From positions 1-37,016 of the forward strand of contig NZ_BBJP01000048.1 in the NCBI RefSeq assembly GCF_000739595.1: a DNA stretch of 37,016 nt, given 5' to 3'. The DNA comes from Halorubrum halophilum (GTDB taxonomy: Archaea; Halobacteriota; Halobacteria; Halobacteriales; Haloferacaceae). Below, piece after piece: positions 2,521 through 13,049 of this stretch (its first letter is position 1; every line of letters begins with the position of its first letter). The notes beneath the pieces were generated by a model that was not told the DNA's origin, made no database searches, and was given only the letters and a program-made list of their open reading frames with translations. Position numbers and translations under genes: made by a program.

Positions 2521-2831
2521 ATCGATCGCGTTGGCGTGTGTCGTCTATAACATCAAACGCTTCGTCACACAGTGAATCCCTCCACTTTACCCCGATTCAA
2601 CACAACCTATCAACCCGAATCGGTCGGAAATACGCTCCAAGAGACTATCTCTTTGGAATATTCGATTTCATCACAATATTGTGAGCCCTTTCTGTGCTCT
2701 ACTGGTCCATATATCGGGCATTCGTGACACGCTTGTGCGAGATATTTACCTTCCAATTTCAAAATAAAAGTCAAAGTATCTGTGTATATCTCCAAAAAAA
2801 TTCATATAATGTGCGATCGGATCTCTCAATC
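2521..2831. other. Intergenic region with promoter of the ATPase gene
   Basis: No gene is supported here. The region is AT-rich compared with its flanks. It contains a perfect 12-bp palindrome (CACAATATTGTG) at 2670-2681, a possible operator. A TATA-like TCATATAATG at about 2801-2810 lies about 26 bases before the ATG at 2832, consistent with a leaderless transcript. Reading frames in this stretch lack haloarchaeal amino-acid composition. Confidence 0.5.
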
Positions 2832-5800
2832 ATGCGACAGCCCTCACAAGAATCTGGGGCCTCAGACAACACGTCTGACGAACGCGATACAAAAAATCGA
2901 GGAGTAGAAAATACCGAAGAGTGCGTTACTGAACTAGAGGCTAGCCAGGAGTACATCAAGATCATCCCCGTCCGAGAAGAGGTCAACTCAGAGACCGTCA
3001 AACGTGAACTCTACGGACTTCACAGATACGGGACGGGCCGGAAGCTCCCGCTCGACATGGAGCTCCACTTCGACAGCATCGACGGCGTCTCCAACTTCGA
3101 ATTCATCATCTACAAGCCAGAAAACGAGGCCCAGTTCCAGTTCTTCCTCGGGCCTGGCGAACGCGGCGACACGAACTGTGATACTCTTGAGAGTACGACG
3201 CGCTCGCAGTACCCCGAGAACTTCGAGTTCGACCGGCAGGACTTCGACATCACGGATGTGTTCGAGGAGACGCCGCACATGGTTCGCTACGAGGGTGTCG
3301 AAGAACGACGGAAGGACTGGATGACGCTTCTCACCCGGTACGACACCGAAACGACGGATCGGTCTACCCTCTCAAACCTGCTTGAAAGCATCATCCAGAC
3401 CGATGACGCAGTCCTCTTCCAGGTCGTTTTCGAGCCGCGTTCAGACTGGTCACCGAAGGCGCAACGACAGAAGGGCCGCCTCAAGCGCGGCGTCCACACG
3501 ACTGGCGGCATGGTCGCTCGGAGTATCGTCGACGCTATCGTGGGCGTCTCAGATGAAGAAAAGCAGCAACGCCACCGGGGAGACACGCCCGAAGAAATCG
3601 GCGGGACCATCATGGACTCCCAAGTCGATGGGCAACGAGCCGGCCAGAGCCGAATGGGGCAGATCGACATGAAAAACCCTAGCCACACCTACAACGTCTC
3701 CCTCCGGGCCGCTGCCCAGACTGAACGCACCGCGAAAAACCTCCAAGACTCGCTCAGCCACCTGAGTGGGAAGTTCTACTCCATCGACGGTAAATACCTT
3801 GGCGAGAACGACTACGAGTACCGACGGATGCTAAACCACGGCATCACCTACCCGAACGGGCTCGAAATGGTGACCCGTCGGAAGCCAATTCTCGTCTGTA
3901 ACATGGAGGAGATCGCGAACTTCATTACCGTCCCATCGATCGACGCACTCCCGAAAGCGAGCCGGGGCGGAACGGGCGGCAAGCCCAAAGCGCAGTCGGC
4001 GCTCACCTCCCCCAACGAAGAAGTGTTCAGGGAATTCTCTGACGGGATGACCATCGGCCACGCGGTCACAGCTCTTCGCGATGACAACGACAACGCAAAC
4101 GAGATCAGCGCCATCGACAGCGTGAATCAATGGTGGCACGAGATCGACAAGCGCGACGCACTCGCCCTCTCCGCCGGCGACCTCACCCACCACTACGTCC
4201 GGGCAGCAACCACCGGGAGCGGGAAGACAGTCGCCACGATCAACGACATGCTCACTACCCACGAGCAACTCAATGGCCCAACAATCCTCATCGATCCCAA
4301 GGGCGGAGAGATGTGTCGGAACTACCTGCGATGCCATCGGACACTCTTTGGCGACCTCGAGGACGTCGAGTACATCAAGGTTCCCGAAGAAGACGGCAAC
4401 ATCCCCGGCATCCCCTTCTTCGACCTCAGACCGCTCACACGCTCCGCTGGCCGCGAACGTGAGACAGCCATCCAGGACCTCATTGACCACTACTTCCAAC
4501 TGCTGCGCTTCGTCCTCGGACGGGAGACGGTCGACCAAGCCTTCGTCGCAAACGAAATCCTGACCAACCTCATCAAGGGGCTCTTCGACGAAGAGAACGG
4601 CTCCGACTACTTCACGATCGGCGACCTACTGGACGCAGCCCGAGACTTCCAACACCACGGCCGGTCCATCGAGAACCTCGAAGAGGCAGACCCCGAGGAC
4701 CTCAACAAAGCACTGCCCCCCGCCGAAGACGAGCAAGTCCGGAGCTTCCTCAAGTCGCATCTTGAGAAAGAAGAGCGGCAGTTCATGAACACGACCGACG
4801 CAGTCCTCAACCGGATTCGAAAGCTCAAGGAGCGCGACTTCATCTGGGACATGCTCTCCTTCGAGGTTCCGGAGGAACACTGGAACAAGACAAAAGACTG
4901 GTACGACCGTGAGGAGGTCCCGATGCTCGACCTGAAGAACATCCTCAACGGCAACAAGGTCCTCCTGATGGACACTGGAAACCTCCGCGGAGAAAGTAGC
5001 GAGGTGTTCACTGTCCTGTTCCTCTCGCACCTCTGGACCTCCGTCCAGTCTCTCTGGACACCCAGCGGCGACGACTACATCGCCAACGTGATCATCGAAG
5101 AATCCGCGAACGTCGCCCGCAACGAGATCGTCTACAACGAACTGCTCCCCAAAGGCCGCGAGTTCAATCTCTCGCTCGGACTCATCATGCAGTACCCCGA
5201 GCAGGTCCTCGGCGAGGACCCACGCAGCAATCGGCGGGCGTACCAGGAGATCCTCAACAACGTCAACACGAAGATCATCGGGAACATTGCCACCGACGAC
5301 ATGCTGGCGAACTCGCTGTTCCACGAGGACTTAGACACTGACGAGATCAAAGATCGAATCGCTGGTCTCCGACGTGGAGAATGGGTTGTCCAACTCCCGT
5401 CCACGGGCTTCCACAAGCAGAAGCCAGAAATCCTCACGCTCAAACCACTCCCGATCCCGCCAGGGCACAGCGAAGGCCCGTTCGACGTCTCCCCGAAGTC
5501 CAAATTCGTCCGGGAGCGCAGCCGGAATCTCCACACCCTCAACCGGGACAGTGAGTACATCAACTCCAGCGCCGGCGCGAACTTCAGCTCGTCTGGGGAC
5601 GGAGATGACGACAACACGACCACCGACAGCGACACCACGAGTGACGATGGCGGACTTGAGCCAGAACAGCTGACTCTCCTGAAAACCATCTTCGACGCCC
5701 TTGCCGGGCAGGTAGACTTGTACGACCTCGGCCAGCCGATGACCAAACTTCACAACAGCGAGTACGCCTCAGATCTTGAAGATCAAGACCTCGTCGAGAA

Positions 5801-6326
5801 GGTTGCCCTCGGCCAGAACAAAGTCTACTACATCCCGACGAAGAAAGGCGAACTCCTCGCCGACGGGAAGTCTCTCTCCCCAGACGAAGGTGGTGAACTC
5901 GGTAACGAAAGCCCAGAGCATCACCTTGGCGTCCGGCTCTCTGCCGCATACTTTGACCAGCAGGGGTTCGACATTACACTCTACGGCGACATCAACGGAG
6001 GAAAAAACAAGACAGACACCTTCGCAGAAGCGACAAAGCAAACCTCTGGAGACCGCGACAAGCTCACTGAAGTCGAGATAAGTCCCGAAAAGAAACAGCA
6101 TGTCCTCGACGACTACGAGGCACTCAAGGAGGGATACGGAGATGCAGTCTGGATCGTTGAAAATAACGAGGAAGTAAGGACACTCCTACAGCAACTCGAC
6201 CAAGCCACAGATACAGACCTACCTTCAGGCCGTTCAGAAAACATTGAGAAAATCAACAAAAAGCTCGACGACGAAGGGATCAAAGAGATTCATACTTTGA
6301 ACTCACTCCGCAGCAAGATCGAATAG
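2832..6326 (+). CDS. TraG/VirD4/HerA-like conjugation ATPase, large
   Basis: This 1,164-residue P-loop ATPase has Walker A at residues 459-466 (ATTGSGKT), a conserved strand IDPKGGEM at about 487-494, and a Walker B-type VIIEESAN at about 753-760. These features match the TraG/VirD4/HerA superfamily, which pumps DNA at conjugation pores or in genome processing. The first 400 residues form a large domain without a known motif. After about residue 920 there is an acidic low-complexity linker, then a winged-helix-like part and a mixed region with TEVEIS that could be a degenerate nuclease fold (inference). The ATG at 2832 is chosen over an in-frame upstream start because a TATA box sits 26 bases before it. 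A role in conjugative transfer or DNA packaging is likely; no relaxase or pore gene is visible in the window. Confidence 0.8.
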   Translation: MRQPSQESGASDNTSDERDTKNRGVENTEECVTELEASQEYIKIIPVREEVNSETVKRELYGLHRYGTGRKLPLDMELHFDSIDGVSNFEFIIYKPENEAQFQFFLGPGERGDTNCDTLESTTRSQYPENFEFDRQDFDITDVFEETPHMVRYEGVEERRKDWMTLLTRYDTETTDRSTLSNLLESIIQTDDAVLFQVVFEPRSDWSPKAQRQKGRLKRGVHTTGGMVARSIVDAIVGVSDEEKQQRHRGDTPEEIGGTIMDSQVDGQRAGQSRMGQIDMKNPSHTYNVSLRAAAQTERTAKNLQDSLSHLSGKFYSIDGKYLGENDYEYRRMLNHGITYPNGLEMVTRRKPILVCNMEEIANFITVPSIDALPKASRGGTGGKPKAQSALTSPNEEVFREFSDGMTIGHAVTALRDDNDNANEISAIDSVNQWWHEIDKRDALALSAGDLTHHYVRAATTGSGKTVATINDMLTTHEQLNGPTILIDPKGGEMCRNYLRCHRTLFGDLEDVEYIKVPEEDGNIPGIPFFDLRPLTRSAGRERETAIQDLIDHYFQLLRFVLGRETVDQAFVANEILTNLIKGLFDEENGSDYFTIGDLLDAARDFQHHGRSIENLEEADPEDLNKALPPAEDEQVRSFLKSHLEKEERQFMNTTDAVLNRIRKLKERDFIWDMLSFEVPEEHWNKTKDWYDREEVPMLDLKNILNGNKVLLMDTGNLRGESSEVFTVLFLSHLWTSVQSLWTPSGDDYIANVIIEESANVARNEIVYNELLPKGREFNLSLGLIMQYPEQVLGEDPRSNRRAYQEILNNVNTKIIGNIATDDMLANSLFHEDLDTDEIKDRIAGLRRGEWVVQLPSTGFHKQKPEILTLKPLPIPPGHSEGPFDVSPKSKFVRERSRNLHTLNRDSEYINSSAGANFSSSGDGDDDNTTTDSDTTSDDGGLEPEQLTLLKTIFDALAGQVDLYDLGQPMTKLHNSEYASDLEDQDLVEKVALGQNKVYYIPTKKGELLADGKSLSPDEGGELGNESPEHHLGVRLSAAYFDQQGFDITLYGDINGGKNKTDTFAEATKQTSGDRDKLTEVEISPEKKQHVLDDYEALKEGYGDAVWIVENNEEVRTLLQQLDQATDTDLPSGRSENIEKINKKLDDEGIKEIHTLNSLRSKIE

Positions 6327-6530
6327 ACCTAAATTTAACTCAGTAGCCTGATCTTCTACACCCCGTACCCGCCTTCTATAGGGGAAAAATATGCTGGCCT
6401 CGTCTGAATGTAGCTATGTAGCATATCAGAAGAATCTACTGCCAACAGAGACGAAGATACGAACAATCCACCAGACAACCCAGACGGCCAACCCAATACC
6501 AACGCTAGCAAGGAAGAAGACGCACGAGAG

Positions 6531-7010
6531 ATGGCCTCCCCGGAGGACAATGCTCCCCCCGAACTAGTCATCGACAAAGTCGCTGAATCCCTCACCGATG
6601 AGGGCCACGATGTCTACCACGGACGCGAGTTCATCACCATCCGAGAAGATGGACAGCTCGCACCGAACTCTACAGTTGTCGAGCAGTATCTTGAGGACAC
6701 CAAAGCGATGATGCTCGCCTACAATGAGGACAGCAACGAGATCATCCTCGTCCCCCTCGAACAACGATTCGACCGGGCAGATGTCTACGGCTACAAACTT
6801 GGCGGGACGATCACAGGGCGGACCTTCGTCAAAGAGTACAGAATCGAGCATGACGAAACGGTTCGCTATCACCCGGAGTGGGATAACGACATCGGCGGCG
6901 ACCAAGTTGATGGTGGCTTCCGAGTCGACCTCGATCAAGACGGCGAGGTCGTCAATACAGATGCGTCTGAAGCCGACAGCACCACCGACGAGTCTGAAGC
7001 TGCCGACTGA
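6531..7010 (+). CDS. Acidic hypothetical protein downstream of the ATPase
   Basis: This 159-residue protein with very acidic ends has no recognised family. The middle (about 20-130) alternates charged and hydrophobic residues like a small alpha/beta domain. The start is uncertain: acidic codons continue upstream in frame to about 6414, and just before them an ATG at 6408 is followed directly by TAG. The protein may therefore be 5'-truncated, or begin at a non-ATG codon; 6531 is the first usable ATG. It lies about 200 bases after the ATPase gene on the same strand and may be co-transcribed with it. A role linked to the ATPase is only a guess from position. Confidence 0.55.
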   Translation: MASPEDNAPPELVIDKVAESLTDEGHDVYHGREFITIREDGQLAPNSTVVEQYLEDTKAMMLAYNEDSNEIILVPLEQRFDRADVYGYKLGGTITGRTFVKEYRIEHDETVRYHPEWDNDIGGDQVDGGFRVDLDQDGEVVNTDASEADSTTDESEAAD

Positions 7011-7445
7011 TAACTCCCGCACGACCACCAGAAGCCGGCCGTAGTCACAGCGTCGGCACCCCCTGGCCCTCCATTTGTTTCTCTCCAGAACCCAACCTCC
7101 GGGAGATGCTAGCAGTGGCTATCCCCAACTGATCACTGCCTGACGCAAGACAACCGACAGGCTCACCCCACGCCGGCCCACTCCTGAACACCCTCCCAGA
7201 CCCAGCGATCTCCCACACAACTCCTCACCCACGCCTGCCTCACTCTCGACGCAAAACTATCGGATGGCTCTCTTCAGGCTCACTATCCACTGGCCGTTGA
7301 GGTACAAGAAGCGTGTCCTATCCTCGCTCATCACCATGGAATCCCTCAAACTCGGAATCACACTTCCGAGAGTGATACCATCGAGTCGCTGTTTCGACCT
7401 AGTGAGATGGGGGTAGCATCTGCTATCGATTCCCCCGATTCAGCG
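7011..7445. other. Non-coding stretch after the ATPase module
   Basis: No gene is supported. The top strand is C-rich. At about 7412-7436 a G-run, the short inverted repeat TAGCA-TC-TGCTA and a C-run follow each other, which could fold as a hairpin. Nothing else is recognised here. Confidence 0.4.
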
Positions 7446-7468
7446 ACTTCTAACGCGAAAATGGAAAA

Positions 7469-7600
7469 CGACCCCCCGACTGTCGACGCAAAAATGGCTC
7501 ACGAATGGACAGCGACCCCCCGACTGTCGACGCAAAAATGACTCACGAATGGAGCGCGACCACCCGACCCTCAATACAAGGCTAACACACGAATAGAGCG
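7469..7600. repeat. 44-bp tandem repeat, three copies
   Basis: Three tandem units of 44 bp start at about 7469, 7513 and 7557. Each begins CGACC and ends near ACGAATRGA. The first two are nearly identical and contain the palindrome GTCGAC; the third has diverged. Frames through the repeat give no plausible protein. It may be a protein-binding array; nothing more can be said from sequence alone. Confidence 0.75.
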
Positions 7601-7808
7601 CAACCCATCCACGGAATATTCTCAGCAAGCCACACCAATACTGACTCTCTAGCTCTCAGCTATCGAAGACCAACTTGTGCCAGCGTCCCCACACCCTACA
7701 CCCCCCAAGTCGGCCCCACTCCCTGCGCGGTAGCTACCGGCTCGACCGCCGTACCACTCAGTGCTTCCTACCACATTTAGTATGGTTTCCACAGCCCAAC
7801 CAACCTTA

Positions 7809-8285
7809 TAAATACCAGACAGCACCGGGATTACGGTGATTTGTATATAGTCTCGTAAATACCAGATGGCACCGGTATTCGGTGGGTGGGTATTAATTAG
7901 CAAGTCCCGATCGAACGACCACCTCGCATTTGTCTATTTACCAGACGGTAGCGTGATACGGCCGTCTCGTATATAGTCTCGTAAATACCAGACGGCACCG
8001 GTATTGCGGGGGTGTGTATTAACTCTCAGAACACGAAGTGCGACACGCGAACCACCAGCATAAATACCAGACGGTAGCGTGATACGGCCATCTCGTATAT
8101 AGTCTCGTAAATACCAGACAACACGGGGATTGCGGCATTCTGTATATAGCCAGTGACCTTGATTCAAATTCTCCAGTAATACCAGACGGCAAGGCTATTG
8201 GCACCTCCTCTATTAATTTAGATATTCTATCTGTCTATTTCTGTAAATACCAGACAGCGGCGGGATTCGGGGGGTTCGTATATAG
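7809..8285 (+). repeat. Eight-unit direct repeat array with 126-bp periodicity
   Basis: Eight same-orientation units begin at about 7809, 7856, 7935, 7982, 8061, 8108, 8177 and 8244. Each starts TAAATACCAGAC or a close variant and ends about 42 bp later in GTATATAG or TATTAA. Units 1/3/5 and units 2/4/6 are each exactly 126 bp apart, and within a pair the units are joined by TCTCG. In units 2 and 4 the start also forms an inverted repeat AATACC-N10-GGTATT. No protein reads through the region. It could be an iteron array, a centromere-like site, or a set of TATA-bearing promoters pointing right; it is not CRISPR because spacers are short and related. Confidence 0.85.
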
Positions 8286-8399
8286 AATAGCACCCGCAAA
8301 ATCAGGCGTCGTTGTTCAGCCATACGCAGAGATAGCTTTAGAGAGCCTATAGAGCAATCTACTTTCCCCGTCGCAGTTCAGCCGAATTCACACAATTAG

Positions 8400-9560
8400 G
8401 GTTCAGGGGAGATGAAGTTCAGTGGATAGTCGCGTAGCGAACGATTCGGGCCGGAGCCAAGAAACGGGCGGGGGAAAGTGGGGGAGACGGGAGACGGACA
8501 AGGCGACGACTATCAGAGATATGATAATGGATAGAACCCTCGAAGAGCGGCACAGGAGACAGGGGGTATGAGGCGATGAACAGGGGCCGACGACAGGCAA
8601 GCAACGACCACCAGCAGAGGACTGGGGAAGAGCCATGACCAGTCCCGGCGACGAAGCGAGACAGCAACGACTGCGAGGTAACGGGAGAGCCTGACTCGGA
8701 GGACCGACGGCGACCGGGAGACAACCCGGGCCCGAAGATCGACGTCGGACCACCAACTGATCGATAGCACTCCAGAGGCGATCCACGACACCACCAACGA
8801 GACCGACCCGGCGGCGACAACTCGACGAGCGACGGGAAGCAAGAATCGACCAGCGGGGGACACCGACCAGCGACGACACCCCGATCCGAACAGCAACCAG
8901 CATCGAAGCCGACCGACGACCGAACTGGAAGCAAGACCGAACCGGCGGGGGCACGACGACATGGAGGGACCACCGAGACGACACGACACCCAACGGCGAA
9001 CAGCGGCGGCGGGGCGACAACAAGAGGCAGGGGCCAGATCACGATGCGAGAGTGGGGGCGGGGGCGCGGGCGGCGACGTCGAGAGTCGCGGTCGCGATGT
9101 GAGCGGTGCGGGGTGAGTGGGCGGGGGAGACGCGATCGTGACCGCACCGAGTGCGACGCGACGGTGGGGGATGGGGGCGACGACGACAGCGAGGCAACGA
9201 TACTGCGGGGGCGGCGAAACAACGGAGACGGTAGGGGCGACGGCGATGTCGACGAAGACCAAACAGCGAGAGCGACGCGACGGTGGGGTGGGGGCGGCGG
9301 GAGACACGATCCAAAAGCACCGCAGCGGGGAACAGCTATCGACGGCTGTTCAGCAGGGGACAGCGATCAGCAGGGGGCGAGGGAGACGGGAGGGGAAGAG
9401 ATAGAAGGTGAGGCGAAGAATCGATCCCCCCTGGGTTGCCGTAGGCGGGTCGTTCAGGACGGAGCCGACGTGGATGACCAGGGCGGGGCCAGATGGCGGC
9501 GCGGGGCGGGGAGTAGCCGGGGTCGGCAGATACTGACTTGATTGGGGGATAGCCGAGGCG
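8400..9560 (+). other. Long T-depleted, G-rich tract without a credible gene
   Basis: The top strand of this 1.1-kb tract is strikingly poor in T. In 8821-9060 I count 9 T against 71 A in 240 bases. G-runs of four to five are frequent, especially at 9050-9070, 9110-9180 and 9280-9300. Stop-free frames exist on the bottom strand in several phases at once, as the composition alone predicts, and their translations are arginine/serine/proline-rich and basic, unlike haloarchaeal proteins. I therefore treat it as non-coding. It follows the eight-unit repeat array and precedes a ribbon-helix-helix gene. A long purine-rich RNA or an R-loop/G-quadruplex-forming site are possible readings. Confidence 0.6.
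8871..8943 (+). repeat. Duplicated block, left copy
   Basis: This 73-base block matches 10033-10105 at 66 of 73 positions. Weaker similarity continues beyond it: AGCGGCGACAGGCGGCGACAA at about 10160 resembles about 9002, and GATGCGAGAGTGGGG at about 9043 resembles about 10207. All seven differences would change the amino acid in the one bottom-strand frame that looks continuous in both copies, so coding is unlikely. Confidence 0.75.
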
Positions 9561-9603
9561 GCTGACGAAAATCACTTACTACCCGGAGAGGGAGTGACAC
9601 CAT

Positions 9604-10011
9604 ATGGGAGAACGAATTGGAGCGATGGTAGATGACGATCTGAACAGCATTCTCGAAGCGATGGCAAACCACCATGACATCCCGAAGAGCAGAGTGATCG
9701 AACTGCTCCTCCGGGAGGGAGTCCAAGCACGCGAGATGCGATACCGGTTCGAACAACTGGACGCGAAGCTCGATCATCTTCTTGAGAACCTCGGCACAAG
9801 CACTACCGTCGCGAACACAGTCGAAGATCGATTCGAGACTATCAGCGAACGGCCGATGCCCGCCGGCGTCTCTGGTGTGGAGTTAGCCGACAGCCCACTA
9901 CCGTACTTTCAGAGCGCAGGGAGCTATCCAGATCGATCGGACGAGGAGGCAGTTGTCCGGGACCAAGTGTTCGACGAACGGGATGCGGTTAGGAAAACAG
10001 ACGACGACTAG
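9604..10011 (+). CDS. Ribbon-helix-helix (CopG/Arc-like) protein
   Basis: This 135-residue protein has an N-terminal ribbon-helix-helix region (about 1-43). A short strand with GERIGAMVDDDL is followed by helices around LNSILEAMANHHDIP and KSRVIELLLREG, the usual CopG-type layout that binds DNA as a dimer. A heptad-like helix follows (about 48-67, EMRYRFEQLDAKLDHLL), probably a coiled coil, then an acidic tail without recognised motif. A Shine-Dalgarno-like GGAGAGGGA lies about 10 bases before the ATG. It sits alone inside a non-coding region, between two copies of a duplicated block and right of the repeat array. By inference it binds these repeats and controls copy number, partition or transcription there. 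Confidence 0.75.
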   Translation: MGERIGAMVDDDLNSILEAMANHHDIPKSRVIELLLREGVQAREMRYRFEQLDAKLDHLLENLGTSTTVANTVEDRFETISERPMPAGVSGVELADSPLPYFQSAGSYPDRSDEEAVVRDQVFDERDAVRKTDDD

Positions 10012-10546
10012 GCGATCGACAGAGAACAGAATCGACGACACCACGATCCGAACAGCGACCAGCATGGAAGCCGACCGACGAACGAACTAGAAACAAGACC
10101 GGACCAGCGGCAACAGCGACCCTGGGGGGCACCTGTTACGACGCGAGACCCAATGATGAGCAGCGGCGACAGGCGGCGACAACAGCACCTACGGGTTACC
10201 GTCCCGATGCGAGACTGGGGAGTGGGGTGGTATGTTGACGACATCGAGTGTTACGAGGATGGTTCGAGAGTGGAGGTGGGGGAGACGACGGCGGCGGGAC
10301 ACCACGACTGTGGGAGCGACGACGCAACAGCATCACCACCAACATCAACGGACTGGGGGCAAAGAGAGTTGATCTCAGTTCTTGCTACCATAGATATCGT
10401 TGATTGTATATTCATCGTCTATGAGAAGTGTATTTTTAGCTACCGGTGGGAGTGGAGTGTGATTTAACAGGAAATTAAGACTACAGACAGATTCGACCGA
10501 TACAACCACTCAAAGACGCAAATACAGTGGACGAGATTTGTGACAC
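10012..10546. other. Non-coding region after the RHH gene
   Basis: The first 330 bases continue the T-poor, G-rich composition seen left of the RHH gene and include the right copy of the duplicated block. From about 10375 composition changes to AT-rich. Frames that stay open here give low-complexity products and none is accepted as a gene. Confidence 0.5.
10033..10105 (+). repeat. Duplicated block, right copy
   Basis: This is the partner of 8871-8943, in the same orientation, with 66 of 73 bases identical. The two copies bracket the ribbon-helix-helix gene, suggesting duplication of a non-coding unit or a composite site recognised on both sides of the gene. Confidence 0.75.
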
Positions 10547-10633
10547 GAATATAAAAGTCACACTCGCTCGTCTAGCGGAATAGCACGATCCGAGAGAACT
10601 CCCCCGGCGCTAGGACGCCGGAGGAATCGTGCT
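10547..10633 (+). ncRNA. TATA box plus strong hairpin; possible small RNA or IS200/IS605-type end
   Basis: A TATA-like ATATAAAA at about 10549-10556 predicts transcription from about 10578. Immediately downstream lies a nested inverted repeat: outer arms AGCACGAT (10582-10589) and ATCGTGCT (10626-10633), inner stem CCGGCG (10604-10609) with CGCCGG (10616-10621) and loop CTAGGA. Read on the bottom strand, the inner part resembles the C-rich/G-rich terminal hairpin of IS200/IS605 elements, which also ends the guide RNA of TnpB. No tnpB or tnpA is nearby, so it would be a remnant. The alternative is a structured leader or small RNA. Bases 10634-10927 show no convincing gene. Confidence 0.4.
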
Positions 10634-10927
10634 GCCAACCCAATGACAGCAATCCAAAACACCAGGGTCAGGAGTCATAACTCTGTCTCTCAGAACACTA
10701 CGCTCAAAACTGACCTAGTGACAGACACCCTCGTACAACTCGCACACCAGCGTGACAAAGCGCACAGCAGCGCCCACATCCAAACCATAGGTAATCAACC
10801 TCCCAAGCCGACCAGAGAGTCCCAGCCGTGGCGACAGGACACCCCGCATGAACCCCTCACTAATTACAGCTTGTCGAAGAGACGCCAGCCACATCGACGG
10901 ACGATCCCATCTACGGAGGCGAGCTAA

Positions 10928-11314
10928 ATGACAGACACGCCCGACGAGACGGCCTCACTCGCGGTTCCAATGGAACCAGATGTCGCGTTCGATGCGATTG
11001 GAAATAGTCGCCGACGCCGCGTCGTATTGTCTCTGTCACGCGCTTCCAAAGCAGTCCCCACTAACGAACTTGCGGTCGAAATCGCGGCCATCGAAAACGG
11101 GATAGATCCCAGCAAGGTCGGCAGCGACGAACGTACGTCGGTCTATATCGCGCTGACCCAGCAGCATCTCGAGACCCTCGATGAAGTCGGTGCAGTCGAC
11201 TACGATGACCGATCCAAGACCGTAACCGCGACAGACGCAACTGAACCACTCGCCGAATACATCCGCCGGCTCCAGACAGCCTGCTACAAACCAGACCGCG
11301 AGGAAAGCGCATGA
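10928..11314 (+). CDS. HTH protein of DUF7344-like type
   Basis: This 128-residue protein has a winged-helix core. It opens with FDAIGNSRRRRVVLSLSR, the hallmark start of haloarchaeal DUF7344 domains, and continues through TNELAVEIAAIE, VYIALTQQHLETLDEVGAVDYD and a wing. These features are known from many small haloarchaeal regulators. Its stop overlaps the start of the next gene (ATGA), so it heads a coupled three-gene operon that ends in a nuclease-like gene. It is probably the operon's autoregulator. The DNA target is unknown. Confidence 0.8.
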   Translation: MTDTPDETASLAVPMEPDVAFDAIGNSRRRRVVLSLSRASKAVPTNELAVEIAAIENGIDPSKVGSDERTSVYIALTQQHLETLDEVGAVDYDDRSKTVTATDATEPLAEYIRRLQTACYKPDREESA

Positions 11315-12003
11315 CTGAGACACAAGCCCGTGCCCTCGCGACACTTCGAGACATCGACGCCCGCTTCCATCGCCTGTTCGAGGCGGTCGATACCGCCGAC
11401 GGAACAGCAGCCACACCGTCCGCAGACCCTCTCGTCACACTCCGGCGAGCACGGTCGCAGATCGATGCTGCGCTGTTCGAACACCAGCGTCGAACAAATG
11501 ACGGTACACTCTCTGACGGTGGGTCATGTGTCCTCCAGTGGGACCCACCTCATACTCCACCACGACGACTTACCCTCGACCCAGACAGCGACGGTGACAG
11601 TTGGACCCGCCGTGAACTCGAGTGGACGGGTGAACGCTGGCGTATCTGTGGTCGCGACAGTGTCACCGACGTCGCGATCAGCGCACCAGCGGAACCACGA
11701 TATCCGGGTCCCATCGACCCGCCGACGATCGAGACACAGCTTAACTGGATTCGCGGTACGTGGACTCATCCGGATCCAGATGTCCTCGTCTTCGATGCGA
11801 CGGCGACAACTGAACAAGGTGTGCTTGGGGCCGTCGACGACGAATTGCGGTACCGAGAGGCCGGCAGCCCTCAGTGGGTCACCGTCACCGACGAAGCGGA
11901 ACTCTACCACCACATCCAGCAACAGGGCCAACCGAGCATCAAGGCGCTCTCAGAGACCACATTGACACGTCACCACTTCACCCCCAGCCCACTCACCCGA
12001 TGA
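11311..12003 (+). CDS. Hypothetical protein, middle gene of nuclease operon
   Basis: This 230-residue protein has no recognised family. The N-terminal 60 residues are helical and acidic. The middle looks beta-rich, with tryptophans and charged turns (WTRRELEWTGERWRICG). The C-terminal half contains RYREAGSPQWVTVTDEAEL. No signal peptide or membrane segment is seen. Its start and stop each overlap the neighbouring gene by an ATGA, so the product is probably made in proportion with the HTH and nuclease proteins. Position suggests a partner or immunity component, but no motif supports a specific role. Confidence 0.6.
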   Translation: MTETQARALATLRDIDARFHRLFEAVDTADGTAATPSADPLVTLRRARSQIDAALFEHQRRTNDGTLSDGGSCVLQWDPPHTPPRRLTLDPDSDGDSWTRRELEWTGERWRICGRDSVTDVAISAPAEPRYPGPIDPPTIETQLNWIRGTWTHPDPDVLVFDATATTEQGVLGAVDDELRYREAGSPQWVTVTDEAELYHHIQQQGQPSIKALSETTLTRHHFTPSPLTR

Positions 12004-13049
12004 GCGCAAACGAATCCCACCTCCCAGACGGGTACGCAAATCATCTGTGCTCGCTTACGGAGACACTCACATCACTCCGTGAAACGATCGAAGGCGACCA
12101 CACGCTCACAACTGACCAGCGGATGTTCGCCCGCCGCCTCCTGTATCTAACCAACCAGCCCATCAAAGAGGCCGAACGGATTCTTCCTGACCCAGATTGT
12201 GACGATGACTCGACCGACGACAATACACTAGATTCTGCCAGCGATTACGCGACTGCACTCACTCGCGTGGAAGAACAGTTATGCTGGCTGATCCGCTCAC
12301 TACAGGCTGCGTTGGCAGACGCCAACTACGACGAGGCACCCGCTGAGAAGTTCACAACAGCGCTTGAGTACGCTACAGCGCTACGAGACATCATTCCCGC
12401 GGTGCCGACAGAAAGCCCAGTCTTGGCCACTCAAGCGGATATCACTATTGGCGAAATCGACCCACATGTCGGGGGTCGTGGTGACAATGATGGGCGGTGG
12501 CTCGAGTACCAACTCGATCGGGCACTCAACCGTTGGGGATACGGGGCGGCAAGACGCCAGCACATCTTCAGTCTCGAGGTTGATGTCGTCGCTCGGCGAC
12601 GAACGAAACAGCAGGAACCCAGCGATTGGATCGTTGCCCAGTGTAAAGACTGGACGACGGACCCAATCACACCGCCAACACTCTTTCGGCTTTGTACGGT
12701 AGCGTTTGCCTGCCGTGCGATGCCAATACTCTGCCACACAACCGAGCTCACTCCGCGAGCCGAAAAACTAGCACGGGAACTTGAAATACGGGTACTCACG
12801 CTCAAGGATTTAGAGCGTGCAGAACTACCTGCCCCGCATGTAGCTAAGCCGACCACGGAGCTTAACCAGTGGGGGCCGCAGTATCGGGCTCGAGAAGCTC
12901 GCGGCTCGTTCCCACTAATGTTTCGTGGGGAGCCGGGGAAACACTTCAGTTACGTCCCAGGGTTTGCTCCCGTTGGAAATAGTGCCAACTACGAGCCGAT
13001 CGAAACCGATCGAGACGATGATGAGAACCATCCTGCTGCTGGTCATTAA
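12000..13049 (+). CDS. PD-(D/E)xK restriction-endonuclease-like protein
   Basis: This 349-residue protein has a helical N-terminal half (about 1-150) and a C-terminal Mrr/restriction-like nuclease core. The core reads GRWLEYQLDRALNRWGY (Glu169), then LEVDVVARRR (Asp195), then IVAQCKDW (Gln214, Lys216). This is the E...D...QxK arrangement of PD-(D/E)xK nucleases. The following helix and strand (MPILCHTTELTPRAEKLA) resemble the usual end of the fold. The ATG at 12000 overlaps the preceding stop and fixes the start. No methylase lies next to it, so it may be a modification-dependent nuclease, a defence effector or a recombination nuclease. DNA as substrate is inferred from the fold. Confidence 0.7.
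   Translation: MSANESHLPDGYANHLCSLTETLTSLRETIEGDHTLTTDQRMFARRLLYLTNQPIKEAERILPDPDCDDDSTDDNTLDSASDYATALTRVEEQLCWLIRSLQAALADANYDEAPAEKFTTALEYATALRDIIPAVPTESPVLATQADITIGEIDPHVGGRGDNDGRWLEYQLDRALNRWGYGAARRQHIFSLEVDVVARRRTKQQEPSDWIVAQCKDWTTDPITPPTLFRLCTVAFACRAMPILCHTTELTPRAEKLARELEIRVLTLKDLERAELPAPHVAKPTTELNQWGPQYRAREARGSFPLMFRGEPGKHFSYVPGFAPVGNSANYEPIETDRDDDENHPAAGH

Follow-up and report, generated by a model that had tools for sequence, protein, structure and literature searches.

The RNAs of the ROOL group, to which the long RNA of the Lactobacillus salivarius megaplasmid belongs, are about 520–660 nt long, structured and protein-free, and their function is unknown; in L. salivarius the RNA is encoded on the plasmid, and its abundance changes with megaplasmid copy number (PMC5643018, PMC12286853). 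GOLLD is an RNA of 800+ nt that occurs on mobile elements and contains internal disordered linkers (PMC12286853), while OLE, a conserved RNA of ~600 nt, is found in Bacillota with Oap proteins as partners (PMC9723947). The RNA predicted here for a haloarchaeal locus would resemble ROOL in being long, structured, protein-free and encoded on mobile elements, GOLLD in being a long mobile-element RNA with a linker comparable to the disordered ones, and OLE in its presence in extremophiles. It differs from ROOL, which belongs to bacteria and phages and is elaborately structured throughout, from GOLLD, which is bacterial, is carried by phages and prophages near tRNA islands and gave neither a sequence nor a model match, and from OLE with its Bacillota hosts and Oap partners. 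A cmscan search of positions 6300–11000 against Rfam 15, including OLE, ROOL and GOLLD, produced no match with E up to 1. Phage carriage near tRNA islands, as in GOLLD and ROOL, is not a property of this locus: there are no tRNA genes in the window, and viral contigs (searched with two exact patterns) and phage genomes gave no match to the RNA. By analogy, the haloarchaeal RNA would work like OLE, ROOL and GOLLD, but it belongs to none of them. Iteron-type plasmid control loci are similar in another respect, since there a repeat array lies by a small protein gene and its motif diversifies with the neighbouring protein; in the haloarchaeal locus, however, a predicted long RNA gene follows the repeats.

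The window analysed is a whole 37-kb contig (37,016 nucleotides) of a 3.68-Mb assembly, and its left 13 kb is plasmid-like. This part contains a tyrosine integrase, a large ATPase, the conserved protein ORF159, a repeat array, the T-poor tract, a gene of a ribbon-helix-helix-like (RHH) protein and a DUF7344 gene, then two genes without family match, the second of which (11994–13049) looks Mrr-nuclease-like to us, and an IS4 transposase. The same order is kept with 89.5% identity on the megaplasmid of Halorubrum ezzemoulense Fb21. The ATPase (2694–6326) has weak similarity to TraD/HerA/CedD and matched 144 plasmid records by tblastn, the genera being haloarchaeal among the matches listed. The noncoding stretch 10510–10780, located upstream of the DUF7344, ORF230 and nuclease-like genes, is ~75% identical to several plasmid records of H. 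salinarum NRC-1.

An earlier note on this DNA had described positions 8400–9560 as a strand-asymmetric, T-depleted and G-run-rich tract without a gene. Its base count for 8821–9060 (A71 C75 G85 T9) proved exact, and runs of G are indeed seen in the tract. T accounts for 96 of 1161 bases (8.3%) over 8400–9560, and the 240-base windows lowest in T in the entire contig all lie inside the tract. The asymmetry is real and exceeds chance, because in 800-base windows the tract contains 6.5% T, while the lower of T and A has a mean of 19.2% and a minimum of 11.8% in 3064 such windows of related haloarchaeal DNA taken outside such loci. Low U is in part normal for structured RNAs of haloarchaea, since the RNase P RNA encoded in this genome, used as the composition control instead of 16S rRNA, which was not found in this assembly, contains 11.1% U. 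The true limits of the feature are ~8375–9570, with the strongest T depletion in its less conserved interior. In most copies the interior contains 5–14% U despite sequence divergence; outside Halorubrum, including Halobacterium copies, its T content is 12–14% and reaches 23% in a single copy from Halobacterium, so that the degree of depletion varies. The comparison with relatives proposed earlier gave a composition that is kept and an interior sequence that has diverged to ~60% identity.

DNA comparison over 391 Halobacteria genomes revealed two strongly conserved islands, block A (8379–8558, + strand) and block B (9405–9530, + strand), which are preserved in constant order across ~10 haloarchaeal genera. 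Lack of conservation in relatives, named in the earlier note as evidence against function, was thus not observed, both ends of the tract being strongly conserved. The covariance model R1, built from block A, matched 25 of the 391 genomes, distributed over ten genera; the carriers include species of Halorubrum, Haloarcula, Halobacterium, Haloplanus, Natrialba, Halopiger and Halosimplex. A sample of 247 genomes drawn from the phylum gave no match outside Halobacteria; in it only the genome studied here responded to the model, with four copies on three contigs. A description of this RNA was not found in the literature searched. It is best read as belonging to plasmids and integrated, plasmid-derived elements of Halobacteria. 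At two loci, one from the genome studied here (L102, C37) and one from Halobacterium sp. KA-4 (L106), two RNA units stand in tandem, 1.4–3.6 kb apart.

Block A has the properties of a structured 5′ domain, with helices P1–P4 and the core ACACAATTAGGG, which is invariant in nearly all copies. Helix P1 (AGGGUUC/GAACCCU) is practically invariant and P2 is weakly supported, while P3 (GGAUAGUC/GACUAUC) appears in other lineages as GGGUAGUC/GACUACC, GUUAGUC/GACUAAC or GGGAGUC/GACUCCC, and P4 (CGC-GUA-GCG) is replaced by CAC/GUG or CGG/UCG. Pairing is maintained in 96.3% of helix cells versus 23–49% in slid controls, and compensatory changes were registered in two helices, with double-sided changes at 4 pairs and in 17 cells; 0–2 of 500 shuffles came as high, and the covariation score surpassed all 500. 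The covariance analysis suggested in the earlier note thus supports RNA structure in block A. G-U pairs are far more frequent than A-C combinations in these helices (24 versus 3), which identifies the + strand as the RNA strand. The compensatory changes stem from few lineages, an inverted repeat at the DNA level could contribute to them, and folding of the single sequence was not significant (z −0.8).

Block B, the conserved 3′ domain, contains two CAGGNCGGRGCC motifs and a terminal GCCG/CGGC hairpin, which turns into GCCA/UGGC in Haloplanus. It is highly conserved; its covariation is weak, and single-sequence folding was not significant here either (z −1.4). Between the blocks lies the U-poor, fast-evolving interior (8559–9404, + strand) with a moderately conserved subsegment at ~8990–9110 in Halorubrum. 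For positions 8560–8990 the predicted fold had no advantage over shuffled controls (z +0.8), and RNAalifold found no convincing covarying helices in the interior. The span from A to B ranges from 0.6 to 1.7 kb across copies; short forms of ~610–640 nt (L044, L048, L074) keep both ends and have one motif hairpin in block B instead of two or three. In a subfamily to which the window does not belong (L052:10529–10780, L053, L061, L070, L097) an additional conserved block, ACTCAGC..AACGGGRTTGTC..ACCC..GTCCCACGGCCAAGT, follows block B on its 3′ side.

Taken together, compensatory changes in block A and the absence of a conserved reading frame make it very probable that the tract is the gene of a long structured noncoding RNA, predicted from sequence comparison to run on the + strand from ~8375 to 9530–9570 (~1.2 kb); of the interpretations offered earlier, that of a long RNA turned out to be the best, as the region is noncoding, retains its composition and shows covariation in block A. 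An unusual coding sequence for a low-complexity basic protein, which the open frames of 160–270 aa on both strands might suggest, can be disregarded with near certainty. In comparison with the closest relative (locus L049) substitutions are distributed as 65, 62 and 64 over the three frame positions and 14 of 14 indels are off frame; in other relatives the majority of indels are off frame as well, and all six frames are interrupted by stops in every relative tested. Any protein common to the tract and its relatives was ruled out on these grounds. The RHH gene next to it showed normal codon periodicity in the same comparison. The view of the earlier note that the tract holds no protein gene is supported. 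In plasmid records the tract is nearly always annotated without a gene. Strand-biased mutation of a non-functional tract would be a purely compositional explanation, and it agrees with substitutions being mainly A↔G and rarely C↔T (106 versus 29) and with the retained composition of truncated copies that are joined to part of a chemotaxis receptor. Such an artefact is nevertheless very improbable, since the ends are conserved across families, the ACACAATTAGGG core in particular, and flanks and other intergenic DNA are free of the bias.

Two other readings, both improbable, accept that the locus is functional. One of them assigns the tract to the RHH mRNA, as its long 5′ leader or a cis-regulatory region, in line with the location of RHH 60–400 nt after block B in many loci and with the presence of block A in copies adjoining distant RHH homologs located by protein search. 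However, the RNA blocks are intact in Halorubrum saccharovorum, H. coriense, H. persicum and Halobacterium noricense, where RHH is missing or reduced to a remnant, and the RNA is also kept at loci where ORF159 is absent or broken. Besides, a leaderless promoter that would belong to RHH itself is predicted after block B at 9566–9581 (+ strand, CGAAAATCACTTACTA), with a ACTTACTA box that is kept in L049, L050 and L055 and centred ~26 nt before the ATG at 9604; an own promoter ~26 nt before the ATG is what is expected for a leaderless haloarchaeal gene. Persistence of the blocks without RHH or ORF159, together with this predicted promoter, speaks for an RNA in its own right and against an RHH leader. 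For the RNA itself we infer a TATA promoter directly upstream (8336–8354, + strand, TTTAGAG...CTATAG), with spacing fixed in 25 block A copies: in nearly all of them the CTAT box precedes GCCGAA by 33–35 nt and the invariant ACACAA by 43–45 nt. With this spacing, a TATA box would place the transcription start on the first bases that are conserved. According to the other reading, the locus acts in cis as DNA, that is, as a plasmid origin or centromere with the blocks serving as protein-binding sites. It draws on repeats adjoining a small protein gene, on the strand-asymmetric G-rich DNA and on two complete plasmids in which the RNA unit is 1.4–6 kb from orc1/cdc6 and has ParA within ~14 kb. Against it stand the nested helices with compensatory changes spanning a 77-nt loop, the excess of G-U over A-C and the fixed TATA-like spacing. 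Priming of replication by the tract, also considered in the earlier note, found no backing, as the cumulative GC-skew extremes of two complete plasmids, uninformative in themselves, did not point to an origin here. The repeats alone could be a cis element beside the RNA gene.

These repeats form an iteron-like array of 7–8 imperfect units, AATACCAGACGGCACCGGTATT and its relatives, found by repeat search at 7811–8290, between ORF159 (6531–7010, + strand) and the RNA. Many loci have an ORF159 homolog upstream of the RNA, and at the loci tested an array was present in the same interval with a motif that differs from locus to locus (TAAATACCAGACGG, TAATGACAAGACGG, TAATCACCAGACGGC, GGTATACGCAGA and others). 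Shared repeated 8-mers track the identity of ORF159 (Mantel p 0.0005), and their association with RHH (p 0.04) or block A (p 0.06) is much weaker. In the pair formed by the 57-kb plasmid of H. ezzemoulense (Hez_p57) and G072, identity reaches 95% for RHH and 90% for block A, whereas it is only 42% for ORF159, and no repeat is in common. Since repeats follow ORF159 both in the Mantel comparison and in this pair, ORF159 probably binds them and is the candidate partner of the array. RHH was rejected in this role in favour of ORF159, as its identity failed to predict repeats in the decisive pairs, and a likeness of TACCAGA between repeats and the P3 strand of the RNA was dropped because it fails across loci. 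ORF159 and its repeats may thus be interchangeable as one module located in front of a stable RNA. ORF159 had no family match, its AlphaFold models from two runs (pLDDT 37 and 41) were too poor for use, and comparison of RHH and ORF159 with PDB gave chance-level matches only. The RHH-like protein (9604–10011, + strand) has a conserved C-terminal tail, visible in alignment, and codon-periodic substitutions. Its assignment to the RHH (CopG) family is tentative: weak similarity to RHH_1 (PF01402) was detected with E<1 in 4 of 15 relatives (best 0.0092), and the protein of the window itself does not reach this level. We know of no repeat array or ORF159 and RHH genes associated with ROOL.

Based on these data one can assume that the RNA would consist of two conserved domains, a structured one at the 5′ end and another at the 3′ end, joined by a U-poor, little-structured and fast-evolving linker of ~0.3–1.25 kb. 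Depletion of U may allow the long untranslated transcript to escape termination at U tracts and may also keep the linker from pairing. ORF159 bound to the repeat array would control the RNA promoter, an assumption for which we see the chances as evenly balanced. The RNA itself might serve to maintain or control the element, working as a scaffold or an RNP. The vicinity of orc1/cdc6 and ParA in the two complete plasmids suggests that it contributes to plasmid maintenance, a role that rests on neighbourhood and is put forward tentatively. Somewhat doubtful, but conceivable, is the broader scheme in which the new large-RNA family, ORF159 and the matching repeats constitute an exchangeable module of plasmid identity or maintenance, with the RNA as its conserved effector and ORF159 with the repeats as its specificity part. 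OLE, ROOL and GOLLD are known from bacteria and phages, and a counterpart on archaeal plasmids, without an Rfam entry, would bring this kind of RNA into another domain. To our knowledge, no large noncoding RNA family has previously been reported on archaeal mobile elements, and this one would be the first. The culturable carriers Haloarcula sinaiiensis, Halorubrum ezzemoulense and Halobacterium noricense make the predicted RNA testable at once, and the association of ORF159 with the repeat motif offers a concrete handle on the specificity of haloarchaeal plasmids.

Partial forms of the locus were also registered. In the window, repeat search and DNA comparison revealed after the RHH gene a remnant second copy of the tract interior (10033–10350, + strand), which is partly nearer to the type of Halorubrum sp. 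BOL3-1. In L049:20986–23500, L057:4485–7000 and L112 RNA units are truncated after ~820 nt and continue into part of a methyl-accepting chemotaxis gene. The truncated unit of L049 is followed downstream by DUF6788 and TRAM-domain genes, and in NZ_CP034942 a T-poor tract at ~5.9 kb is flanked by the same genes.
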